The notes beneath the pieces were generated by a model. It had not been told where the DNA came from and searched no databases. It worked only from the letters and a program-made list of their open reading frames with translations. Position numbers and translations under genes: made by a program. Shown piece by piece: positions 38,458-52,577 of a stretch of DNA of 64,000 nucleotides. Origin of the DNA: Variovorax sp. MHTC-1 (GTDB taxonomy: Bacteria > Pseudomonadota > Gammaproteobacteria > Burkholderiales > Burkholderiaceae_C). Within the stretch, counting starts at the first letter, position 1; the number at the start of each line of letters is the position of its first letter. The stretch lies in contig NZ_RWKI01000001.1 of the NCBI RefSeq assembly GCF_003984645.1, forward strand, positions 558,001 through 622,000. Direction: 5' to 3'.

Positions 38458-39728
38458 GCCGCATTGCCGTCATCGGCGCGGGCTGGGCCGGCCTGGCCTG
38501 CGCCATCGACGCGACGCGCGCCGGCCACGTCGTCGTGCTGTTCGAAGCCGCACGCACCCTCGGCGGCCGCGCGCGCGCCCTGCCGGCACAGATGCCCGAC
38601 GGCCAGCCGGTCATGCTGGACAACGGCCAGCACATCATGATCGGCGCCTACAGCGCCACGCTGTCGCTGATGCGCGAGCTCGGCGTCGATCCCGGCGCCG
38701 TGCTGCATCGCATGCCGCTCACGCTGCGCTTCGCCGACGGCGGCGGGCTGCAGGTGCCGCACGGCCCGCCGCCGCTGGACCTGCTGGCCGGCATCCTGGG
38801 TGCGCGCGGCTGGTCCTGGCACGACAAGGCCGCGCTGGTGCGCACCGCATGGCGCTGGCGCCGCGACGGCTTCCGCTGCGACCCCCGCACATCGGTGGCC
38901 GCACTCTGCGCAGCGCTGACGCCGCGCGTCATCGCCGAACTGATCGAGCCGCTGTGCGTCTCGGCGCTCAACACGCCGACCGGGCGCGCGAGCGGTGAAG
39001 TTTTCTTGCGCGTGCTGAACGACGCCCTGTTCGCCGAGCGCGGCGGCGCCGACCTGCTGCTGCCGCGCGTCGACCTCGGCGCGCTGTTCCCGGATGCCGC
39101 GACGCGCTGGCTCGCGCAGCACGGCGCCCAGCTGCGCAGTGGCACGCGCGTGCAGGCCATCGCCCACGGACCGGCGGGCTGGCAGCTCGATGGAGAAGGC
39201 TTCGACCGGGTGGTGCTCGCCTGCCCGCCGTGGGAGGCCGCGCGCCTCGCCGCGAGCGCGGCGCTGCCCGAGGCATCGGCCTGGTCGCAAACGGCCCGGG
39301 CGCTGCAGCACGAAAGCATCGCGACCCTCTACATGGCAGGCGGCATCGCCTTGAGCGCACCGATTCTGGCGCTGCGTGCGGGCGCGCGCACGCCGGCGCA
39401 GTTCGTCTTCGATCGCGGCCAGCTCGGCGGACCGCGCGGCCTGCTGGCTTTCGTGGTCAGCGCCAGCAACGACGAACGCGAGACCTTGCAGCAGCAGGTG
39501 CTTGCGCAAGCCCGCGAGCAACTCGGTCTGGCCGGCTTGCAGCCGGTGCAGACCGTGGTGGAGCGCCGCGCCACCTTCGCCTGCACGCCGGCGCTGGTGC
39601 GGCCCCGGGCCCAGGTGGCGCGGGGCCTGCTGGCCTGCGGCGACTATGTCGAAGGTCCGTATCCCGCGACGATCGAAGGCGCGGTACGCAGCGGCCGCAC
39701 GGCGGCCGCCGGCTGCGGCTCCACGTAA
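38454..39728 (+). CDS. hpnE: Hydroxysqualene dehydroxylase HpnE
   Basis: A 424-residue FAD-dependent amine-oxidase-like enzyme that reduces hydroxysqualene to squalene. The N-terminal dinucleotide-binding motif IAVIGAGWAGLACAID (residues 3-18) and the following FEAARTLGGRAR (near 31-42) are canonical for this family. The start is GTG 38454, overlapping the hpnD stop. The last 85 bp overlap, on the opposite strand, the 3' end of the sigma-54 activator gene. No squalene-hopene cyclase gene follows in the window. Confidence 0.92.
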   Translation: MSRIAVIGAGWAGLACAIDATRAGHVVVLFEAARTLGGRARALPAQMPDGQPVMLDNGQHIMIGAYSATLSLMRELGVDPGAVLHRMPLTLRFADGGGLQVPHGPPPLDLLAGILGARGWSWHDKAALVRTAWRWRRDGFRCDPRTSVAALCAALTPRVIAELIEPLCVSALNTPTGRASGEVFLRVLNDALFAERGGADLLLPRVDLGALFPDAATRWLAQHGAQLRSGTRVQAIAHGPAGWQLDGEGFDRVVLACPPWEAARLAASAALPEASAWSQTARALQHESIATLYMAGGIALSAPILALRAGARTPAQFVFDRGQLGGPRGLLAFVVSASNDERETLQQQVLAQAREQLGLAGLQPVQTVVERRATFACTPALVRPRAQVARGLLACGDYVEGPYPATIEGAVRSGRTAAAGCGST

Positions 39729-41074
39729 GGGCCCTGCGGCGCGCTCAGCGCGATGCTGTGCTTGTCCATCAAGCGGTACAGCGTCATGCGCGACACGCCG
39801 AGCTCGCGCGCCGCGTGCGTGACGTTGCGTCCGACACGCGTCAGCGTGAGGCAGATCGCATCGCGCTCGGCCATGGTGCGGGCCGTATCCAGGCCCATCC
39901 CCACCGGCGTCTCGACCGCGGCGAGGCCGAGGTCGGCCGGCCCGATCAGCCGCTGCTCGCTCATCACGACCGCACGCTGCACGCGGTTGTACAGCTCGCG
40001 CACATTGCCGGGCCAGCCATGCGCCATCAGGGCCCCCAGCGCCTGCCGGCTGAAGCCTTTCACGCGGGTCTTGCTCTTGCCCGCGCAGCGCTGGAAGAAG
40101 TACTCCGCGAGGATCGGCACGTCCTCCATGCGGCGGCGCAGCGGTGTCACCTCGATCGACAGCACGTTCAGGCGGTAGAACAGGTCGTCGCGGAACTGGC
40201 CCACCGCCACCGCTTCGGCCAGGTCCACGTGCGAAGCCGCCAGCACGCGCACGTCGACCTGTAGGCTGCGCACGCCGCCGACGCGCTGGATCGTCTTTTC
40301 CTGCAGGAAGCGCAGAAGGTTGGTCTGCAGCTCCAGCGGCAGATCGCCGATCTCGTCGAGGAACACCGTGCCGCCGTTGGCAGCCTCGATCAGCCCGCGC
40401 CGCTCCGACGATGCGCCGGTGAACGCGCCCTTTTCGTGGCCGAACAGCTCGGACTGGATCAGCGAGGGCGAGATGGCGCCGCAGTTGACGGCCACGAAGG
40501 GCCCGGCCGAGCGCAGCGAGCATTGGTGAATGGCGCGTGCGGCGAGTTCCTTGCCGCTGCCGCTTTCGCCGCCGATCAGCACCGGAGCATCCGTCGCTGC
40601 CACCCTGCGGATCTGCTGGCGCAGCCGCGTGATGGCGGGCCCCTGGCCGACCATGCCCATGGCATCCGCCACGTGCGTGTGGGTCTTGTGCCGGCGCCGC
40701 AGCATGGCGCGCTGGCAGGCATGGTCGAGCACCCGCTCCAGCTCATGCCCGTCGAGCGGCAGGACCTGATGGTGGAAGAAGCAGCCGAGAACCAGTTCGC
40801 GGAAACCGGGCGACTCCAGCGCCTGCGCCTCGCACACGGCCACCCACTCCATGCCGTGCGATGCATTGACGCAGGCCTCGATCGCCGCCTCCGGCACCGT
40901 CAGCGCGTCGCCGACGATCAGCAGGCCGACCGGCAGATGGCGGTGCGCCTGGATGCGATTCGCCGCCGCCAGGTCGGTCGCCTGCATGAGCTCCCAGCCG
41001 CGGGCGAGCAAGTGCGCCTTGACGCCGCCCGCGTCGCCGCCCAGCGCCACGTACAGAAGGGTTCGAAGCTGCAT
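39644..41074 (-). CDS. Sigma-54-dependent activator with VpsR-like N-terminal domain
   Basis: A 476-residue enhancer-binding protein. Residues 1-125 form a receiver-like but non-phosphorylatable domain of the VpsR type (VpsR of Vibrio binds c-di-GMP). The AAA+ domain has Walker A GESGSGKE (169-176), the sigma-54 contact motif GAFTGA (216-221) and Walker B FLDEIGD (238-244). A Fis-type helix-turn-helix (HAARELGVSRMTLYRLMDKH) follows, then an extra tail of about 28 residues encoded antisense to hpnE. It lies 12 bp after the beta-barrel gene and faces a clear sigma-54 promoter at 42868, so it is the probable activator of the low-complexity protein operon. Response to c-di-GMP is inference. Confidence 0.88.
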   Translation of the reverse strand: MQLRTLLYVALGGDAGGVKAHLLARGWELMQATDLAAANRIQAHRHLPVGLLIVGDALTVPEAAIEACVNASHGMEWVAVCEAQALESPGFRELVLGCFFHHQVLPLDGHELERVLDHACQRAMLRRRHKTHTHVADAMGMVGQGPAITRLRQQIRRVAATDAPVLIGGESGSGKELAARAIHQCSLRSAGPFVAVNCGAISPSLIQSELFGHEKGAFTGASSERRGLIEAANGGTVFLDEIGDLPLELQTNLLRFLQEKTIQRVGGVRSLQVDVRVLAASHVDLAEAVAVGQFRDDLFYRLNVLSIEVTPLRRRMEDVPILAEYFFQRCAGKSKTRVKGFSRQALGALMAHGWPGNVRELYNRVQRAVVMSEQRLIGPADLGLAAVETPVGMGLDTARTMAERDAICLTLTRVGRNVTHAARELGVSRMTLYRLMDKHSIALSAPQGPYVEPQPAAAVRPLRTAPSIVAGYGPST

Positions 41075-41086
41075 GGCGAACTCGGA

Positions 41087-42388
41087 TCAGAACGACATCG
41101 GCACCCTGACCGTCAATGTGAGATCGGGCGTGTCCCGCGTCAACCCGGCACCCACGGTCACGTTCACCGCGGTCTTGTCGCTGACCCGGTACGAGTAGCC
41201 CAAATTGAGCGATCCCAGCTGTGTGCGCACCGAGGTCACGACCGGCATGCCGTTCTGCTTGGTCTTGCCGATGGAATTGAGCTCCACCCCGACGCTGAAG
41301 GACGAGCGCTCGTTGAGCGCCAGGCCCATGCCGAAGTTCACGCCGAAGATATTGCCCGGCTTGACCGACCCGATGAACTCGCGTTCGCCGTTCAGCACCA
41401 GGCGGCTCAGGTTGTCGCGGCCGAAGTTGTGCGTGTATGTGAAGCTGCCGAAGAACACCGCCGGGTCGGTGGGCAGCAGCCAGGTCAGCCCGGTCTGCAG
41501 CGAATAGAAACCCGAGCCCGTCGGCAGGTCCAGCGGCAGGCCGGTTCCGGTCGTGTTGCCGATACAGCGCGTGACGCAGTCGGTCACCACCTCGAACGGG
41601 TCCTTGCCGGTGCGGGTCTTGAAGCGCAGCGAGCCGATCATGTAGGGCCAGTTGCCCTTGCCCTCGTTCAGCTGGTAGCGCGCCGCGAGCTCGATGTCGC
41701 CGACCGACCGGCCACTGGTATCGAACACCCGTTCATTCGCGGAGCCGGTGAAGATCTCGCGGCTGATGGTGGAATCGGAGCGATAGACGTAGGGAAGCTT
41801 CGCTTCCAGTTCCAGCCGGTTGGTGATGCCCCAGCGGCCGGCGAGCGCGGCGGTCAGCGTGTTGCGCTTGACCTCGCGCACGTCGACCAGGCCGATCAGC
41901 AGCGCGGGGATCACCGTGTAGCCCACCAGCGCGACGCGGTTGTTCGACGAGTAGGCGTACTGCAGCGAGGGCTCGATCACATATTTGCCGCGCGGCGTGA
42001 GGATGCCGGGCTGGTCGAAGATCGGCGCCACTTCCGGCACCGCGGACGCATCGCTGCTGCTGGGTGCCACGCCCACGCGCACCGGACGCGGGCCGGTGTC
42101 GGCAACCTCGGTCGCCGCGGGCTTGCTTTCCGGGGGTGGCGCGCTGCGCGCCTCCTGGGTCTGCAGGCGCTCCTGCAGTTCGCGGTATCGGGCCTCCTGC
42201 TCCTGCGCCTGTTGCCGCAGCACCTCGATCTGGCGTCCCTGCTCCGTCAACTGCTGCTGCAGCGCTTCCATGCGCTTGGCCGCGCCCCTGGCGGGCGATG
42301 TGCCTTGGGCCTGCGCAACCGCGCCCGACCACGCCAGGGAAGAACACGCAAGGAGCGCAAGCGCCCTGTGCTGCCGCGATGTCTCCAT
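41087..42388 (-). CDS. Outer-membrane protein: N-terminal coiled coil plus beta-barrel (FapF-like secretion channel candidate)
   Basis: A 433-residue exported protein. The signal peptide ends near residue 27 (AVAQAQ). Residues about 36-82 form a Gln/Glu-rich coiled coil (EALQQQLTEQGRQIEVL). A Pro/Ala linker follows, then about 300 residues of alternating beta-strand pattern ending in a terminal phenylalanine (VRVPMSF), the usual outer-membrane insertion signal. Cysteines in DCVTRC may form a loop disulfide. Coiled coil plus barrel at this length is the FapF architecture (trimeric amyloid secretion channel), but generic barrels occur too. The ATG is fixed by GGAGGTGGAGAG. It is co-oriented with the activator gene and divergent from the low-complexity protein gene. 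Confidence 0.75.
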   Translation of the reverse strand: METSRQHRALALLACSSLAWSGAVAQAQGTSPARGAAKRMEALQQQLTEQGRQIEVLRQQAQEQEARYRELQERLQTQEARSAPPPESKPAATEVADTGPRPVRVGVAPSSSDASAVPEVAPIFDQPGILTPRGKYVIEPSLQYAYSSNNRVALVGYTVIPALLIGLVDVREVKRNTLTAALAGRWGITNRLELEAKLPYVYRSDSTISREIFTGSANERVFDTSGRSVGDIELAARYQLNEGKGNWPYMIGSLRFKTRTGKDPFEVVTDCVTRCIGNTTGTGLPLDLPTGSGFYSLQTGLTWLLPTDPAVFFGSFTYTHNFGRDNLSRLVLNGEREFIGSVKPGNIFGVNFGMGLALNERSSFSVGVELNSIGKTKQNGMPVVTSVRTQLGSLNLGYSYRVSDKTAVNVTVGAGLTRDTPDLTLTVRVPMSF

Positions 42389-42949
42389 CTCTCCACCTCC
42401 CTTGTTGTTGGCTCGGGGGTTGAATGTCGCGCGCCAGCGTAAACGCATCTTTCAAAGTGTGGCAAGGTGCAAGTTGAAAACAAAAGTAATGGTGACAGCC
42501 GGGTGACGATACGCGCTCTATCGCTGTCTCAAAACTGAGGCACTTCAAGGCTCGGCCGGATGGGCTACCTCAATCGAAGGAGGCGCCACGCAAGGCCTTG
42601 TCGCACAACGCTAACCGCCGCGATCGAACTCGCTCGCCGGCTCGGCGGCCCGTCACATGGATGAGACAGCAAGCGCATCCGATTGCCTGCCCGGGCCGCG
42701 AATGTTTCCAAGGCGGACGCCTGCTACACGTGCGAGCAGTCCTGCGCAGCCGTCAAGCCGCCGTGACAAATCGTCGACTCGAGGACCGTGCACGAGGCCG
42801 CGAGATGAACCCGGCCAGGGCAGCTGCACGGCCTTCTCCGTCGTACAAGAGCAGGGCCGCCGTCGTCTGGCATCGAAGTTGCACGAGGTCTCTTGAATTG
42901 CGGCGACGCAACTCATCCGCGCTTTGTCACGTCAACAAATGGAGACCCT
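42389..42949. other. 561-bp divergent regulatory region
   Basis: No convincing gene is seen here. It separates the barrel gene (minus) from the low-complexity protein gene (plus). Visible are a sigma-54 promoter at 42868-42883, a short dyad CTCA-AAAC-TGAG near 42529-42540, and two copies of TGCACGAGG about 90 bp apart (near 42788 and 42880, the second overlapping the promoter). I found no sigma-54 promoter on the minus strand for the barrel gene. The length fits upstream activator sites and DNA looping. Confidence 0.6.
42868..42883 (+). promoter_or_regulatory. Sigma-54 (RpoN) promoter, -24/-12
   Basis: TGGCATCGAAGTTGCA has the invariant GG (-24) and GC (-12) separated by exactly 10 nt, with a perfect TTGCA -12 element. 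The predicted start is near 42894, leaving a leader of about 56 nt with a GGAGA ribosome binding site before the ATG at 42950. A sigma-54 activator is encoded just across the divergent region. Confidence 0.85.
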
Positions 42950-43954
42950 ATGAAGAAGACACTTCTGGCTTCGGCCATCACGGTTGCATTCGGGTTCAGC
43001 GGTGTGGCGTTCGCCAACGACACGGGCCAGCTCGCGCTTCAACTCACCGGTGAAGGCGACAACACGAGCACGAACACCAGCACCTCCACCAGCACGAGGA
43101 CCAGCACCAGCACGCGCACCTCGTCACGCAGCGACAGCAGCACCAACAAGGATTCGGGTGATGCCTACACCAGCGCTGCACGCTCCGCCGCGCTCAACAA
43201 CGGCTCCACCGGAACCTTCAGCAATGCCTTCAATGTGACGAAGGCGACCGCCACCAGCAACCTGACCGGCGTGGTGACGGGCAACAGCGTCTACAACATC
43301 GGCAACCAGGCCTACAACACCGGCTCCGCCGCGGGCGGCACCGGCAACGGCGGCTACGGCGGCGTTGGCCGCGGCGGCTCGGCCTCCGGCACCGGCACCG
43401 GCGGCAACGGTGCGGTTGGTGCGACCGGCGGCAACGCCTCCAACGGCGCCATCAACCATGGCAGCGCGACCAACGGCAGCGCCACTGCGGGCACGGGCGG
43501 CAACGGCGACGGAGGCGGCGCGAATGGCTTCAATGCAAGCGGCATCGTGGTTGCGGATGACGGCGGCACGGCCACGAGCACCAACGGCGGTTCGCGCACG
43601 GCAGGCGATGGCACCGGCGGCGCCGGCGGGGCGGCCACCAACGGCAGCGCGACCAATGGCAGCGCCAGCAACGGCAACAACACCGCGGGCAGCGGCGGCG
43701 CGGGCGGCGCCGGTGGTGCGGGCAACGGCGGCACCAACACCGGCAACGGCGGCACGGGCGGTGTGGGCGAAGGCGGCAGCGGCGGTGCCGGCGGCACCAA
43801 CACCGTTACTGCCGGGACCTTCAACATGTCCAACACCATGACCAGCGTCGGACAGTCGGCGGCCGGCATCATGCTCGCGAACCAGAACAGCGGCTTCTCG
43901 TCGCTGGTCCAGCAAAGCGTGAACGTGCAGGCCAACCTGGCCGTGGGACGGTAG
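42950..43954 (+). CDS. Secreted Gly/Asn/Thr/Ser-rich low-complexity protein (candidate fibre or adhesin subunit)
   Basis: A 334-residue exported protein. The Sec signal peptide is residues 1-22 (ending GVAFA). Then follow a Ser/Thr repeat stretch (about 36-70, NTSTSTSTRTSTSTRTSS) and a transition with ordinary composition (about 70-125). Next is a long region (about 130-280) built almost only of Gly, Asn, Ala, Thr and Ser with ATNGSATNGS and GGAGGAGG units. The conserved-looking C-terminal segment has normal composition (TSVGQSAAGIMLANQNSG, then SLVQQSVNVQANL). It has no cysteine after the signal. Composition and context suggest an extracellular fibre, amyloid-like or adhesive. It lacks the CxxC motif known from FapC, so homology is unproven. 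Confidence 0.8.
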   Translation: MKKTLLASAITVAFGFSGVAFANDTGQLALQLTGEGDNTSTNTSTSTSTRTSTSTRTSSRSDSSTNKDSGDAYTSAARSAALNNGSTGTFSNAFNVTKATATSNLTGVVTGNSVYNIGNQAYNTGSAAGGTGNGGYGGVGRGGSASGTGTGGNGAVGATGGNASNGAINHGSATNGSATAGTGGNGDGGGANGFNASGIVVADDGGTATSTNGGSRTAGDGTGGAGGAATNGSATNGSASNGNNTAGSGGAGGAGGAGNGGTNTGNGGTGGVGEGGSGGAGGTNTVTAGTFNMSNTMTSVGQSAAGIMLANQNSGFSSLVQQSVNVQANLAVGR

Positions 43955-44036
43955 CCCCCTAGAGCTCGCACTCGCCGTGCCGCCTGCAGCGCATGCAGGC
44001 AGCGCGGCGATGCCGGCTCGCTCACCGGAGAGACAC

Positions 44037-44384
44037 ATGAGATCGATAGCACTCTTCGGCTCCGTCGGCCTGGTCGCGACGTTCATGCTGGCGCAGGGCG
44101 CCAGCGCGCAAACATCGGTAGTGCCGAGCGGCTCGCTGGCCTTCTCCAATCCCGTCGACTCGGCGGTGCTGGCCAGCCAACGCGGCGGCAATCAGCTGGT
44201 GCACAACGACATGGAGCTGAGCGGGGTCACGGCCGACAACACGGCCCGCAACGTCAACACGGGCAGCAACGCCATCAGTTCAGGATCCTTCGCCAACATG
44301 AGCGGCCTGCCGGTCGTGATCCAGAACACCGGCGCGAACGTGCTGATCCAGAACGCCGTGATCCTTCACCTGCAGATGAACTGA
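44037..44384 (+). CDS. Small exported protein with RGG motif (fibre-operon component)
   Basis: A 115-residue protein with a signal peptide ending near residue 25 (GASAQ). Early in the mature chain it has VLASQRGGNQLVHND (RGG at about residues 48-50). A Val/Asn-rich segment follows (SGVTADNTARNVNTGSNAI) and the end has short repeats of NTGANVLIQN type that look like stacking beta-strands. I do not recognise a family. It lies between the low-complexity protein and the C39 peptidase, 10 bp from the latter. By size and place it could be a minor or nucleating fibre subunit (FapB- or FapE-like role); this is inference. Confidence 0.72.
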   Translation: MRSIALFGSVGLVATFMLAQGASAQTSVVPSGSLAFSNPVDSAVLASQRGGNQLVHNDMELSGVTADNTARNVNTGSNAISSGSFANMSGLPVVIQNTGANVLIQNAVILHLQMN

Positions 44385-44394
44385 CGGGGACGCC

Positions 44395-45075
44395 ATGCGC
44401 GGCCTGTTGCTCTTCATCTCGCTGATCGCAGCGGCCAGCGCAGCGCCGGGCCAGCTGGCGCACCTGCCGTCCATGGGCACGGGCGACGTGATCATGCCGG
44501 TCGTCAGCATGCGGCAGGCGCGCCTGGCCGGCACGCTGCTGCAGAAGTACGACTTCAGCTGCGGCTCGGCGGCGCTCGCCACGCTGCTCACGCACCACTA
44601 CGGCTACCCGGTCACGGAACAGATGGTGTTCGAGGAGATGTACGCCCGCGGCGACAAGAAGAAGATCCACACCGAAGGCTTCTCGCTGCTCGACATGAAG
44701 CGCTACCTGGCCGCGCACGGCTTCGAGGCCGACGGCTTCGAGCAGCCGCTGGACAAGCTCAACGAGGCCCGCGTGCCCGCCATCGTGCTGATCAACGAGA
44801 ACGGCTATCACCATTTCGTGGTGGTCAAGGGCGTGCAGGCCGACCGGGTGCTGATCGGCGACCCGGCGCAAGGCACGCGCGCGCTGCCGCGCAAGACCTT
44901 CGAGGCCATCTGGAAGAACAACCTGCTGTTCGTGGTTCACAACCGGATGGAGTCGGCGCGCTTCAACCTGGCGGCCGATTGGCGCGTGGCGCCGCGTGCA
45001 CCGCTGGGCGGCGGCGTCAGCCGGGAAGGCCTGTCCCACATCACGCTGCCCAAGATGGGACCGGGAGAGTTCTGA
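44395..45075 (+). CDS. Exported stand-alone C39-like cysteine peptidase (FapD-like)
   Basis: A 226-residue protein with an N-terminal signal sequence (about residues 1-17) and a peptidase C39 domain (about 34-190). Catalytic residues are in place: the oxyanion Gln50 and Cys56 in LLQKYDFSCGSAAL, His140 in NGYHHFVVVKG and Asp156 in LIGDPAQG. C39 domains normally cleave double-glycine leaders inside ABC exporters; here there is no transporter, only an export signal, as in FapD of Fap systems. It probably acts in the periplasm on a partner of the same operon. Its stop overlaps the next start by one base. Confidence 0.86.
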   Translation: MRGLLLFISLIAAASAAPGQLAHLPSMGTGDVIMPVVSMRQARLAGTLLQKYDFSCGSAALATLLTHHYGYPVTEQMVFEEMYARGDKKKIHTEGFSLLDMKRYLAAHGFEADGFEQPLDKLNEARVPAIVLINENGYHHFVVVKGVQADRVLIGDPAQGTRALPRKTFEAIWKNNLLFVVHNRMESARFNLAADWRVAPRAPLGGGVSREGLSHITLPKMGPGEF

Positions 45076-45557
45076 TGCGCGCCGCCCGCCTGCTCTGCGC
45101 CCTGCTCGGCCTGGCCCTGTGCCTGCCGGCGCAGGCCGACGCGGTGTGGGAGGCCGTGAGCGAGCGGACGCTCGACGGCCTGCGCGGCGGCTTCGACGTG
45201 GGGGGCGGCCTCCTGGTCAGCTTCGGCATCACGCGTGCCGTCTACATCAACGGCGACCTGGTCACTCAGACCACGCTCAATTTCGGCCGGTTGTCCGAGC
45301 TGACGCCGGCCCAGGCTGCGCAGCTCAATCAGCAGATGACGGCGCTGAACCTGGTGCAGACCGGGCCGGGCAACAGCGTCGCTCCGGACGTCGTGTCGAC
45401 GGGCGCAGGCACCATCATTCAGAACACGCTGAACAACCAGCACATCGTGAACCAGACCGTGATCGACGCCCGCAGCAACGCGATGGGCATGATCAAGAAC
45501 CTGAACATCCAGAACACGCTGAACGAGGCGCTGACCCGTTCGGCTGCACCGCGCTGA
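45075..45557 (+). CDS. Small exported protein with LxGLRGG motif (fibre-operon component)
   Basis: A 160-residue protein with a signal peptide ending near residue 22 (LPAQADA). Directly after it comes SERTLDGLRGGFDVGGGLLV, in which DGLRGG resembles a double-glycine processing site for the C39 peptidase encoded just upstream. The GITRAVYINGDLV segment and the C-terminal Asn/Gln-rich strands (GTIIQNTLNNQHIVNQT, KNLNIQNTLNEAL) look like stacked beta repeats similar to those of the 115-residue neighbour. The ATG overlaps the peptidase stop (TGATG). I do not recognise the family with certainty; a FapE-like role is possible. Confidence 0.74.
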   Translation: MRAARLLCALLGLALCLPAQADAVWEAVSERTLDGLRGGFDVGGGLLVSFGITRAVYINGDLVTQTTLNFGRLSELTPAQAAQLNQQMTALNLVQTGPGNSVAPDVVSTGAGTIIQNTLNNQHIVNQTVIDARSNAMGMIKNLNIQNTLNEALTRSAAPR

Positions 45558-45560
45558 GTC

Positions 45561-46022
45561 CTACCAGCCCCAGACCAGGCGGCGCGCCACCCAGCCGGTG
45601 GTGCCGCGCTCGTGGCGCACCTTCACCCAGTCGCCGCGGCGCTCCAGCGTGCGCAGCACGTCGCCGTAGCGGGCCTTGCCGACCACGCGGGCGCCGGTGC
45701 CCGGCTTGCCGCGCAGGTTGGCGACGCGCGCGGTCACGATGTGATGAGGCCTGCGGCCGGTGTGCGAGCGAAGCACCCAGCCCCGGTCGTTCTCGAAATC
45801 GCGCACCCTGAGCCAGCGGCCCTTGCGCCCCAGCACCTGGAGCGGATAGCCGCGGCTCACGACCCAGGCGACTTCGTGGCGCGGGCCAGGGCCGGTGCGC
45901 ATATTGATCTCGGCGCGCGCCGCGCTGACCATCTCCCGCGCATGGGCCGCCGTCGGCAGGATCGACGATACGAGCAGTAGGAAGGCAAGAAGAGATGCGC
46001 TCAGGCGGCGTGTGTCGATCAT
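45561..46022 (-). CDS. Exported protein with two bacterial SH3 domains
   Basis: A 153-residue periplasmic protein. The signal peptide is residues 1-27 (ending TAAHA). It is followed by two SH3_3-type domains: AEINMRTGPGPRHEVAWVV with GRWLRVRDFENDRGWVL, and ARVANLRGKPGTGARVVGK with GDWVKVRHERGTTGWV. Such domains bind peptidoglycan or proteins. The ATG at 46022 is preceded by AAAGGATTTC. It is convergent with the fibre operon (3 bp between stops), so any functional link is uncertain. Confidence 0.86.
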   Translation of the reverse strand: MIDTRRLSASLLAFLLLVSSILPTAAHAREMVSAARAEINMRTGPGPRHEVAWVVSRGYPLQVLGRKGRWLRVRDFENDRGWVLRSHTGRRPHHIVTARVANLRGKPGTGARVVGKARYGDVLRTLERRGDWVKVRHERGTTGWVARRLVWGW

Positions 46023-46136
46023 TCGTCGAAATCCTTTCGAGGGAGACAGGTTGAACAAGCGCGGCCGCATTCGCGCGACCAGCCCTTCAGGGCCTGCTGC
46101 GCCGCAGAAGTTCCGTCGAATCGATACGGGAAATCG

Positions 46137-50608: not shown

Positions 50609-51592
50609 TCATCGGCTGCTGGCCACCGGGTACACGCCCTGCGGCCGCCACAGCAGCACCGCCACCATCAGCGCGATGCTCGCGAACTGCGTCATCACGG
50701 GCAGCAGGAAGCCGGTGTAGTTGGTAAGAAGGCCCACCAGCAAGGCGCCGATCAATGCGCCGGTGGTCGACCCCAGGCCGCCGATGATGATCACGATGAA
50801 GATCAGTACGTTGACCTGTGCACCCATCTGCGGAATCAGGTTCTGCTGGAACAGGCCCCACATCACGCCGCCCAGGCCCGCGAGCGCGCTGCCGACCACG
50901 AACACGCCGACGAACAGCCGGCCGATGCGATAGCCGAGCGACTCGACCATCTCGCGGTCCTGCACGCCGGCGCGGATCAGCAAGCCGATCTTGGTCCGCC
51001 CCAGCGTCCACGCCAGCAGCCCGAAGACGAAAACGCCGACCGCCACCGCGAGGATGCGGTACTTGCTGATCGCCGCATCGCCCACCAGCAGCGAGCCGCG
51101 CAGCGCTTCGGGCAGCGGCAGCGGCAGCTGGCCCGGGCCCCAGATCACCTTGATCAGCTCTTCGCCGATGATCAGGCCGCCCATGGTGATGAGGATCTGC
51201 TTCAGGTGCTGGCCGTAGACCGGCCGCACGATGAAGCGCTCGAAGGCCAGGCCGACTGCGCCGGCCACCGTCATCGCGACCAGCATCGCGGGGAACACGG
51301 CCACCAGGTTGCGCCACAGTTCCTGCGAGCCGGTCCAGTCGCTCATGCCGCCGAGCACGCTGCTCGCCACGAAGGCGCCGAGCGCGATGAACACGCCGTG
51401 GCCGAAGTTGAGCACGTCCATCAGGCCGAAGATGAGCGTCAGGCCCGAGGCGATGATGAAGATGATCATGCCCATCGCAAGGCCGGCGACGGTGAGCGTG
51501 AGCCAGGTCGAGACGGAACCCGTCAAGGGCAGCGCGATCAGCGCGATCACCGGCACCAGCGCCATCGGCTTCCAGTCGAATTCGAGTTTCAT
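50609..51592 (-). CDS. livH: Branched-chain amino acid-type ABC transporter permease LivH
   Basis: A 327-residue inner-membrane permease with about eight hydrophobic segments. The LivH blocks GLTLIFGLMDVLNFGHGVF (near residues 52-70) and the cytoplasmic coupling loop TKIGLLIRAGVQDREMVESL (near 211-230) are clear. The ATG at 51592 is preceded by GGCACT, the same bases that precede the livF stop. The frame is open further upstream through three tandem repeats, but the repeat-encoded extension has no LivH similarity and is not counted. Confidence 0.93.
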   Translation of the reverse strand: MKLEFDWKPMALVPVIALIALPLTGSVSTWLTLTVAGLAMGMIIFIIASGLTLIFGLMDVLNFGHGVFIALGAFVASSVLGGMSDWTGSQELWRNLVAVFPAMLVAMTVAGAVGLAFERFIVRPVYGQHLKQILITMGGLIIGEELIKVIWGPGQLPLPLPEALRGSLLVGDAAISKYRILAVAVGVFVFGLLAWTLGRTKIGLLIRAGVQDREMVESLGYRIGRLFVGVFVVGSALAGLGGVMWGLFQQNLIPQMGAQVNVLIFIVIIIGGLGSTTGALIGALLVGLLTNYTGFLLPVMTQFASIALMVAVLLWRPQGVYPVASSR

Positions 51593-51852
51593 AGTGCCCC
51601 CACGCTTGCCACTTCGTGTGCTGCGCTGCCTCCCGAGGGGGCGCGAGCTTGCTTGGGGCGGCCCGGCGCGGCGCTCATAGTGCCCCCATGCTTGCCACTT
51701 CGTGTGCTGCGCTGCCCCCCGGAGGGGGCGCGAGCTTGCTTGGGGCGGCCCGGCGCGGCGCTCATAGTGCCCCCCACGCTTGCCACTTCGTGTGCTGCGC
51801 TGCCCCCCGAGGGGGCGCGAGCTTGCTTGGGGTGGCCCGGCGCGGCGCTCAT
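51590..51852 (-). repeat. Three tandem units of repeat family B at the livF-livH junction
   Basis: Three near-identical units of 86, 87 and 87 bp. On the plus strand each begins CATAGTGCCCCC and runs through CTTGCCACTTCGTGTGCTG, GAGGGGGCGCGAGCTTGC and GGCCCGGCGCGGCGCT. The centre CCCCCCGAGGGGG is a hairpin. On the minus strand each unit starts GGCACTATGA, which is also the livF stop and the livH start context, so the ATGA overlap expected between the two genes is split by the repeat array. Each unit is open for translation (MSAAPGRPKQARAPSGG). Confidence 0.92.
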
Positions 51853-52577
51853 AGTGCCAGCCCCAGCAGCGAATGCTGCAACTCTTCATCGGCCGAGAAC
51901 GCCGCCATCGTGCCGCTGTGCACCACGCGGCCGTTGTCCATCACGGCCACTGTGTCGCCGAGGCGCTGCGCGAAGTTGATGTTCTGCTCGACCAGGAGAA
52001 TGGTGACGCCGCTTCGCTTGAGCTCGCTGAAGGCGTCGATCATGTTGTTGATGATGGCCGGCGCGAGGCCCTTGCTCGGCTCGTCGATGATCAGCAGCTC
52101 GCGCGGCTCGACGATCGAGCGGGCCACCGCGAGCATCTGCTTCTGGCCGCCCGAGAGCTTGCCGGCCGGATGGCTCCAGAACTTCTCCACCGCGGGGAAC
52201 AGCTTGAAGATCCACTTCAAGCGCGCATCGTCCATCTGCTCGGCATTCTTGGCCGCGCGTGCCGCGAGCAGCATGTTCTCCCTGACCGTGAGGTCCGAGA
52301 AGATGCCCATGTTCTCGGGCACGTAGGCGATGCCGAGCCCGGCGATCTGCGGCGTATGCAAGGCCGTGATGTCCTGGTCGCCGAAGCGCACGCGCCCATC
52401 GGACGCATGCCACAGGCCCATGATGGTTCTGAGCGTGGTGGTCTTGCCGGCGCCGTTGCGGCCCAGCAGCATCGTGAGCTGGCCGCGGGGCACCGCAAGG
52501 TCTACGCCGTGGAGGATGTGATAGGCGCCGATGTGGGTATGCACGCCTTCGAGTTGCAACAATGCTGGATGGCTCAT
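51849..52577 (-). CDS. livF: Branched-chain amino acid-type ABC transporter ATPase LivF
   Basis: A 242-residue cytoplasmic ATPase. It has Walker A GRNGAGKTTT (near residues 38-47), the Q-loop region IAYVPENMGIFSDLTV, the signature LSGGQKQMLAVARS (near 140-153) and Walker B LLIIDEPSKGLAP (near 160-172). The switch His of the usual H-loop appears replaced in ILLVEQNINFA, normal for LivF. Its start overlaps livG by ATGA; its stop overlaps the first tandem repeat unit. Confidence 0.94.
   Translation of the reverse strand: MSHPALLQLEGVHTHIGAYHILHGVDLAVPRGQLTMLLGRNGAGKTTTLRTIMGLWHASDGRVRFGDQDITALHTPQIAGLGIAYVPENMGIFSDLTVRENMLLAARAAKNAEQMDDARLKWIFKLFPAVEKFWSHPAGKLSGGQKQMLAVARSIVEPRELLIIDEPSKGLAPAIINNMIDAFSELKRSGVTILLVEQNINFAQRLGDTVAVMDNGRVVHSGTMAAFSADEELQHSLLGLAL

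Follow-up and report, generated by a model that had tools for sequence, protein, structure and literature searches.

A Fap-like secreted-fibre locus in Variovorax sp. MHTC-1, probably one of a widespread branch distinct from Pseudomonas Fap, carries conserved candidate sites for FapD-family cleavage

Among described secreted-fibre systems, the functional amyloid (Fap) system of Pseudomonas, encoded by fapABCDEF, combines a FapF-type outer-membrane barrel preceded by a long N-terminal helix with an exported C39 peptidase, FapD. FapA is reported to be absent in 6 of 16 genera, and separation of fapF is a common variation, occurring in 4 of 16 genera (PMC3792158). In the study of Rouse and colleagues, the target of FapD was called unclear, Fap proteins were described as being without canonical C39 sequences, GG and GA motifs were noted in FapE, only FapE showed complete N-terminal processing by mass spectrometry, and cleavage of the FapF linker was raised as a possibility (PMC5557850). 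Fil, a putative pilus system (FilA to FilF in NCBIfam), is linked to Acinetobacter by the title of one paper (PMC4751259). C39 domains also occur in peptide-exporting ATP-binding cassette (ABC) transporters (PCATs). For a C39 enzyme, the published recognition consensus is Leu(-12)-x3-Glu(-8)-Leu(-7), followed by a double glycine in the form of GG, GA or GS, with residues -4, -7 and -12 sitting in a hydrophobic groove (PMC6363468, in part). Here we analyze a locus of six contiguous genes at positions 39644..45557 of a 64,000-nucleotide stretch of the Variovorax sp. MHTC-1 genome (the window), which a preliminary description, generated from the letters and a list of open reading frames (ORFs) only, had read as a divergent Fap-like locus under sigma-54 control. 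We consider it probable that the locus belongs to a widespread FapF/FapD-type secreted-fibre branch, homologous to yet distinct from Pseudomonas Fap, and that it works as proposed below.

The six genes lie exactly where they had been described (Table 1), with the activator and barrel genes on the (-) strand and a divergent four-gene set on the (+) strand, which encodes a low-complexity protein, small protein 1, the exported C39 peptidase and small protein 2; as had been claimed, no ABC transporter gene lies within the locus. The best NCBIfam family for the barrel protein is FapF (9.5e-53, 179.5 bits), followed by FilC (70.2 bits), and its sole matches in the PDB below E 0.2 are FapF crystal structures (best 5o67, 2.2e-36). 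An AlphaFold model built with 24 related sequences as input (mean predicted local distance difference test [pLDDT] 79.1) shows a 48-residue helix at residues 34-81, expected to form a coiled coil, which a linker of low confidence (85-127) separates from the barrel, starting near residue 130. Hits 1 to 18 in a Foldseek search with this model were all FapF chains, 5o67_B having a template-modelling (TM) score of 0.79 by target length and 0.55 by query length, and the next hit was 4rl8, another Pseudomonas putida outer-membrane channel, at 1e-11. By both family and modelled fold, the barrel protein is a relative of FapF and not of an unrelated channel family; as a channel of the FapF type, it would be a trimer with a periplasmic coiled coil.

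The C39 protein likewise has FapD as its best NCBIfam family (3.7e-41, 140.8 bits), followed by FilB (127.2 bits), and its nearest solved structure is the double-glycine protease domain 6mpz (1.7e-8 in a PDB search). The catalytic roles of Cys, His and Asp are established for the C39 family, and no variation is seen at these three residues, or in the motif of the active-site Cys, in any of 26 C39 sequences. Judged by these profiles and residues, the protein is an exported FapD relative with a complete active site, in line with the relationship first proposed. Like PCATs, the system shares the C39 catalytic domain and a double-glycine leader logic; unlike in PCATs, the enzyme is free and exported, and its candidate substrates have a Sec-type signal before the leader. 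Single searches of the 5.88 Mb genome gave one C39 match (Pfam), one FapF match and one VpsR match, all three in this locus.

Co-conservation of the gene set, which the preliminary description had left to be checked, is found among near and remote relatives. A C39 match of some kind is present in 40 of 200 genomes from the family, counting the genome itself, and in 11 besides it the match reaches 56-73% identity. All 11 close Burkholderiaceae relatives encode the low-complexity tail and both small proteins around the C39 gene; the barrel and activator genes are in the same stretch in 9 of the 11, and the remaining two have the barrel on another contig. A class-wide FapD search gave matches in 77 of 369 genomes, from which 31 places were fetched. 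Fourteen of these (L081-L094) are canonical Fap, with FapC, FapD, FapE and FapF in all 14 by iterated profiles and a separate FapB in 12 by the same profiles and in the other two by NCBIfam; another 14 (L096-L109, the remoter set) represent the present system, with a barrel in all 14 and both small proteins at E <1e-4 in 13, the values in L104 being 0.008 and 0.001; the remaining three (L095, L110 and L111) are other places. Among named genomes there are at least 585 confirmed C39 relatives, of which the best 80 were kept as named loci; these loci are related to one another, so that counts drawn from them are not independent, and at least three of them are the same contigs as loci of the earlier set (L123 = L035, L162 = L039, L174 = L043). 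They come from Variovorax, Polaromonas, Rhodoferax, Cupriavidus, Ralstonia, Paraburkholderia, Massilia, Duganella, Janthinobacterium, Dyella, Luteibacter, Rhodanobacter, Lysobacter, Pseudoxanthomonas, Dechloromonas and others. Small protein 1 is present in 79 of the 80 (missing in L152, a 5.8 kb piece), small protein 2 in 79 (L125 ends at a contig edge), the low-complexity tail on another ORF in 71 and the barrel in 72; 65 loci have the complete set of both small proteins, C39, barrel and tail. Where the full 6 kb flanks are available (60 loci), the barrel is found in 59 and the tail in 55. The profile of small protein 2, as a profile match alone with no gene context, also matches 19 of 61 same-genus genomes and 16 of 398 genomes of a phylum sample, own included in both. 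Pseudoduganella lurida CGMCC 1.10822 has two copies of the system (L148 and L173) and thus contributes two of the 80 named loci. Channel, peptidase and co-conservation together support the Fap-like logic first read from the locus.

How, then, does this branch relate to Fap and Fil? In a maximum-likelihood tree of 50 C39 sequences, 26 of the present system form one group (support 98/93), the 14 canonical Fap sequences with L095 and L110 form a second (100/98), and five Fil-type sequences with L111 form a third (100/99); the root is a midpoint and carries no inference on which group came first. The present branch thus stands apart from both canonical Fap and Fil in this tree. Besides the channel and peptidase, the locus has in common with Fap a FapB/C-type repeat, a FapE-like protein that bears the leader signal of FapE, and a VpsR-type sigma-54 activator, also found near four of five canonical loci tested; the shared classes of channel, peptidase, FapE-like protein and activator could be expected if the locus were canonical Fap merely diverged in sequence. 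We regard that as very unlikely, since the C39 proteins have a separate tree group, one genome (G211) holds both canonical Fap (L085) and the present system (L109), and no three-repeat FapB or FapC is found. The locus is not canonical Fap, because it has no major subunit with three FapB/C repeats: the bulk protein has one tail only, weakly repeat-like, and no NCBIfam FapC match. Further differences are the absence of a separate three-repeat FapB and of CxxC, an RGG where FapE has RG[RK], the divergent position of barrel and activator, and the lack of any recognized FapA. The divergent channel gene had been taken as a mark of divergence from Fap, and its position is confirmed, although separated fapF genes are too common to count as such. 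No FapA was recognized at the locus, and the FapA models also matched none of the seven proteins of the canonical locus L081. The earlier statement that no FapA-like chaperone is recognizable holds in that form only. Reading the locus as a Fil pilus system was rejected: FapD and FapF outscore FilB and FilC for the window, whereas L044, the one locus on which the Fil label was checked, scores highest with FilB (240.8 bits), FilC (268 bits) and FilD (421.8 bits), all under the NCBIfam cut-offs. Peptidase and barrel are related to those of Fil, which differs in its other subunits, in a FilD-type protein downstream of the barrel (L044) and in its C39 group. Separately, seven open frames of one genome (G245) match C39; at 218-236 residues, none is as large as a transporter.

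The three other secreted proteins carry both the likeness to Fap and the main departure from it. The low-complexity protein is composed of Gly (25%), Thr (14%), Ala (14%), Ser (12%) and Asn (11%), has no family match below E 0.02 in Pfam or NCBIfam, and lacks CxxC, as had been pointed out, because it has no cysteine at all. Profile-profile comparison links its tail to that of small protein 1 (E 2.8e-6, a score reached by 0 of 60 shuffles), and the latter aligns with 33 of the 37 columns of the canonical FapB/C repeat (E 5.7e-5, again with none of 60 shuffles scoring as high); by this alignment, small protein 1 ends in one FapB/C-type repeat. A direct assignment of the low-complexity tail as a FapB/C repeat was dropped, as 20 of 60 shuffles scored at least as high in a comparison using 12 sequences, and only the indirect link via small protein 1 was kept. 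Three repeats are reported for 94.2% of FapC (PMC12392863, in part), and the main departure from Fap is therefore the bulk protein, in which a single repeat-like tail follows a long, variable, Gly-rich stretch. The same departure suits a non-amyloid surface adhesin or matrix system, which differs from the fibre we propose only in the nature of the product: a flexible Gly-rich coat, passed by the same channel and anchored by the tail, with no cross-beta fibre. A bulk protein rich in Gly, Thr, Ala, Ser and Asn, its single conserved tail and the weak direct match of that tail to Fap repeats are in its favor, but the channel, the peptidase, the FapE-like protein and the FapB/C-type repeat all stem from the Fap amyloid kind, and we hold such a coat to be possible rather than probable.

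Small protein 2 matches canonical FapE by profile-profile comparison (E 2.2e-5, score 37.4, while 100 column shuffles reach at most 16.5). The Fap-family profile searches proposed at the outset gave, for the small proteins, a FapE match carried by the leader region and a match to one FapB/C repeat, and gave no three-repeat FapC. A Pfam match of small protein 2 to the 5-fold beta-flower (E 0.1) was taken as chance. Six of the 14 canonical loci (L081, L082, L083, L086, L089 and L094) encode a small exported protein with a leader-like motif; for the one scanned, from L081, NCBIfam gave nothing at 0.01. Small protein 1 was rejected as the counterpart of these proteins because their profiles do not match (score 8.8, 13 of 60 shuffles as high).

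Both small proteins have conserved double-glycine-type leaders. For small protein 2, L-x-x-x-R-G-G is present in 79 of 79 named-locus copies, and RGG lies at the site of the profile in 78 of the 80 named loci. Although the mean column identity of this protein is no more than 31%, R-G-G does not vary in an alignment of 24 sequences (24 of 26 rows, L038 and L096 being excluded for long linkers) or in a second alignment of 47 mostly nearer sequences. The 79 copies of small protein 1 have L...RGG (61), L...[ST]GG (11), and L...HAG or R[GA] (7). For comparison, L...RGG occurs in 5 of 465 other ORFs with a signal-like start in the same loci and in 48 of 5200 shuffled small protein 2 sequences. Among 26 leaders of small protein 2, position -12 is V or L in 21, -7 is L in 25, and -4 is L, M, I or V in 25; in the 14 canonical FapE proteins, -12 is L, I or V in 14, -8 is E in 10, -7 is L or M in 14, -4 is M, I or L in 13, and the leader ends in R-G-[RK] in all 14. 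The small protein 2 of one remote locus (L103:5972-7192) has a long coiled-coil-like stretch before RGG, and its predicted leader is far longer than usual.

A leader matrix was trained on the 26 small protein 2 and 14 FapE leaders, with the 99th percentile of each protein's own shuffles as threshold. Outside the training set, small protein 1 exceeds the threshold in 71 of 79 named loci and in 21 of 26 of the other set, as do six of the six small proteins from canonical Fap loci. None of 12 low-complexity proteins, 14 FapB, 14 FapC, 12 C39 proteins or 10 activators does so, two of the FapB rows (L092 and L094) being FapC rows, although a separate FapB was found in both loci. Several exported subunits of Fil-type loci carry similar sequence right after the signal, e.g., DDSALSQVSGQD and ISDEEMALVRGQ, and 5 of 12 such leaders, picked by a looser motif, pass the matrix. 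Five genomes of the same family have Fil-type loci with C39 and barrel (L044-L048), in which several exported subunits carry a leader-like D-D/E-x-L-x-x-V-x-G-Q/R-D just after the signal peptide.

The conserved L-x-x-x-R-G-G suggests a cleavage site of the FapD-family peptidase. It might instead be a structural or binding motif, cleavage itself being a prediction and the R at -3 being invariant in small protein 2; this we consider unlikely, as the R of small protein 1 varies (S or T in 11 of 79) while GG stays, the spacing fits the leader consensus with its double glycine, and the segment preceding RGG is of variable length and composition. Leaders of the double-glycine type typically belong to exported peptides (PMC6363468, in part), so their presence in both small proteins could also point to a peptide-maturation system, whose products would be the processed small proteins (about 65 and 120 residues), secreted as peptides or signals, while the low-complexity protein would serve as a carrier or scaffold. 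With no ABC transporter in the locus, a FapF-like channel, and a low-complexity tail that occurs in 71 of 80 loci and has a relative in the tail of small protein 1, this strikes us as improbable.

On balance, we slightly favor a more general proposal, in which FapD-family peptidases share one recognition code in exported accessory subunits: a hydrophobic residue at -12, L at -7, often a hydrophobic residue at -4, and [GA] at -2, lying between the Sec signal and the mature part and removed by the periplasmic C39 enzyme. The code would be followed by this branch and by canonical FapE, with a looser fit in Fil-type subunits, and would define a Sec-plus-C39 maturation route separate from the ABC-transporter route, with this branch as the third system to use it. 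In some genomes the signal lies in the channel itself, and there the peptidase may act on its own channel. The matrix exceeds its threshold in 21 of 72 named-locus barrels, 2 of 10 first-set barrels and 2 of 14 FapF, and 14 of 72 barrels have L...RGG between residues 91 and 166 of the stop-to-stop frame, which would be near the linker if the model of the window's barrel applies to them. The ORFs with L...RGG ahead of the barrel are those of L136, L141, L145-L147, L151, L156, L160, L166, L171, L174, L177, L180 and L181, and in such barrels the peptidase could cut its own channel at this candidate site. The window's own barrel has no matrix site. Since the canonical FapE leader ends in R or K, which is a trypsin site, tryptic data alone cannot prove a cut there.

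The sigma-54 control ascribed to the locus is supported by the domains and the promoter-like element found. The activator has a Pfam Sigma54_activat domain (232.9 bits) with an intact GAFTGA loop, an HTH_8 domain and an N-terminal VpsR domain above the Pfam cut-off. A VpsR domain was found in 9 of 10 activators tested, five of five from this branch and four of five from canonical Fap loci. With a single mismatch, TGGCATCGAAGTTGCA is the sole match in the window to a sigma-54 -24/-12 site at up to one mismatch; the 22 window matches with up to two mismatches are no more than chance. Sites with at most one mismatch lie upstream of the low-complexity gene in 25 of 64 named loci, against 0.38 expected, and 24 of these begin at -75 to -117; the other 16 of the 80 loci were left out for unclear starts, no tail match or short upstream DNA. 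In the first sets the count is 9 of 20, window included (12 first-set and 10 of 14 remoter loci, two skipped; the start in L039 is clearly wrong). A shared-palindrome search in 63 named loci and the window gave TGTCAC-N6-GTGACA, which is perfect in 11 of 64 loci and has at most one mismatch in 21, against 0.0 expected and none in 30 shuffle sets. Element and palindrome are thus conserved, and the latter would be the binding site of the activator. Of the copies in the window, two differ from the palindrome at two positions and lie 100 bp apart, and another two differ at three; at up to three mismatches, the whole window has six matches versus 18.6 in shuffles, four of the six being in this intergenic region. 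Elsewhere, the palindrome with at most one mismatch is found in 4 of 11 loci of the first Burkholderiaceae set, 1 of 14 canonical Fap loci and none of five Fil-type loci. VpsR-type regulators are known to bind cyclic di-GMP (c-di-GMP), and a c-di-GMP input to the activator is a reasonable guess by analogy from the VpsR domain detected. In Burkholderia, the c-di-GMP effector BerB is reported to work with RpoN in the control of biofilm (PMC5552954, in part).

Based on these features, we propose that the VpsR-type activator binds the upstream palindromes and would drive sigma-54 transcription of the four-gene operon, the signal probably being c-di-GMP or a similar cue of sessile life. The operon products would reach the periplasm by Sec, where the C39 peptidase is predicted to strip the double-glycine-type leaders of small proteins 1 and 2, cutting after L-x-x-x-R-G-G, and the low-complexity protein, together with the two accessory proteins after processing, would reach the surface through the FapF-like channel. 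There, the low-complexity protein may form the bulk of the fibre, joined via its repeat-like tail; small protein 1, with its single FapB/C-type repeat, is the likely nucleator or cap, in the role of FapB, and small protein 2 would take the role of FapE. By homology of channel, peptidase and accessory proteins, the system probably works like Fap, and the fibre may be amyloid.

Several observations weigh against this proposal. The scores of the C39 protein (140.8 bits) and the barrel (179.5 bits) fall under the NCBIfam equivalog cut-offs of 330 for FapD and 700 for FapF; the FapD cut-off was reached by none of the 369 class-wide genomes searched, and therefore says little on remoter relatives. 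For the three other secreted proteins, NCBIfam searches up to E 1 give no match to FapB, FapC or FapE. Direct comparison of the low-complexity tail with FapB/C repeats is weak (2 of 60 shuffles as high with 16 sequences). Without its leader, small protein 2 matches FapE only modestly (score 20.4, 100 shuffles reaching at most 18.1), so that its FapE-likeness is well supported at the leader, which carries the match, and modestly beyond; its AlphaFold model is poor (pLDDT 61.6), with a helix at residues 30-36 before RGG seen at low confidence. As to the leaders, position -4 is often not hydrophobic in small protein 1 (Q in 7 and L in 5 of 26), and the matrix also fires in 2 of 14 FapD. The activator lies inside the locus in 37 of the 80 named loci, in just 31 of the 60 with full flanks and in 7 of the 14 of the remoter set, and its GAFTGA is GSFTGA in L034, L036 and L043, the relatives nearest to the window, and in L101, and was not found in L042. 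The palindrome was discovered and counted on the same sequences, has no genome-wide specificity at two mismatches (50 places versus 45 for a control pattern), and at one mismatch or fewer is scarce in the remoter set (1 of 14); its scarcity outside the named loci makes it mainly a feature of nearer relatives. With these points taken into account, a FapF/FapD-type fibre system remains the reading we consider probable.

Table 1. Features of the locus, in positions of the window
Feature	Position	Strand	Remarks
Sigma-54 activator: VpsR-type N-terminal domain, AAA+ with intact GAFTGA, Fis-type helix-turn-helix	39644..41074	(-)	Pfam
FapF-type outer-membrane channel: signal, helix (expected coiled coil), linker, beta-barrel	41087..42388	(-)	ORF may also start at 42448; likely start 42388
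Weak palindrome copy, 3 mismatches	42491..42508	(+)	
Weak palindrome copy, 3 mismatches	42525..42542	(+)	
Candidate upstream activating sequence, palindrome TGTCAC-N6-GTGACA, 2 mismatches	42651..42668	(+)	kept upstream of the low-complexity gene in relatives
Candidate upstream activating sequence, 2 mismatches	42751..42768	(+)	exactly 100 bp from the other 2-mismatch copy
Sigma-54 -24/-12 element TGGCATCGAAGTTGCA	42868..42883	(+)	67-82 bp before the low-complexity start codon; kept in relatives
Low-complexity exported protein, candidate fibre subunit, 334 amino acids	42950..43954	(+)	ends conserved, Gly/Asn/Ser/Thr/Ala middle variable
C-terminal tail of low-complexity protein, conserved	43817..43951	(+)	related to small protein 1 tail, profile-profile
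Small exported protein 1, 115 amino acids: double-glycine leader and one FapB/C-type repeat	44037..44384	(+)	
Small protein 1 leader VDSAVLASQRGG	44154..44189	(+)	predicted cut after last G
Exported FapD-type C39 cysteine peptidase	44395..45075	(+)	Cys codon 44560, His 44812, Asp 44860
Small exported protein 2, FapE-like, 160 amino acids	45075..45557	(+)	profile-profile with FapE
Small protein 2 leader VSERTLDGLRGG	45156..45191	(+)	predicted cut between RGG and F

Signal peptides of the locus proteins were judged by eye. The ORF of small protein 1 mechanically starts at 43977, and the start at 44037 is preceded by GGAGAG; the ATG of small protein 2 overlaps the stop codon of the C39 gene. The flanking SH3 protein gene (45561-46070) has no tblastn match at 1e-3 in 11 related loci, and the unit therefore ends where the preliminary description had set its end. 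Named near relatives of both small proteins are from Variovorax paradoxus, and the closest named contig among the best 80 of at least 585 is V. paradoxus ISL-3, 93% identical in the C39 region. On the other side, a convergent plus-strand ORF ending at 39728, whose product resembles a squalene-associated flavin adenine dinucleotide (FAD) desaturase, overlaps the 3' end of the activator gene by 85 bp (39644-39728). Farther away, the window has an 87-bp tandem repeat at 51589-51858 (3.1 copies, 95% matches) with the hairpin core CCCCCCGAGGGGGC.

Among the titles and abstract openings listed from the open-access literature, none reports this branch or a double-glycine site in FapE. What appears to be new is a widespread Fap-like branch together with a concrete candidate site for cleavage by the FapD family, the target of which had been called unclear. 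Since a plain double glycine is found in 79 of 79 loci and the same signal in 14 of 14 canonical FapE proteins, the cleavage code is cheaply testable. The published census of Fap systems required hits to a FapB/C repeat model (PMC12392863, in part), and a repeat-based census would probably miss this branch. Because that census relies on FapB/C repeats, secreted-fibre systems of this kind may be undercounted.

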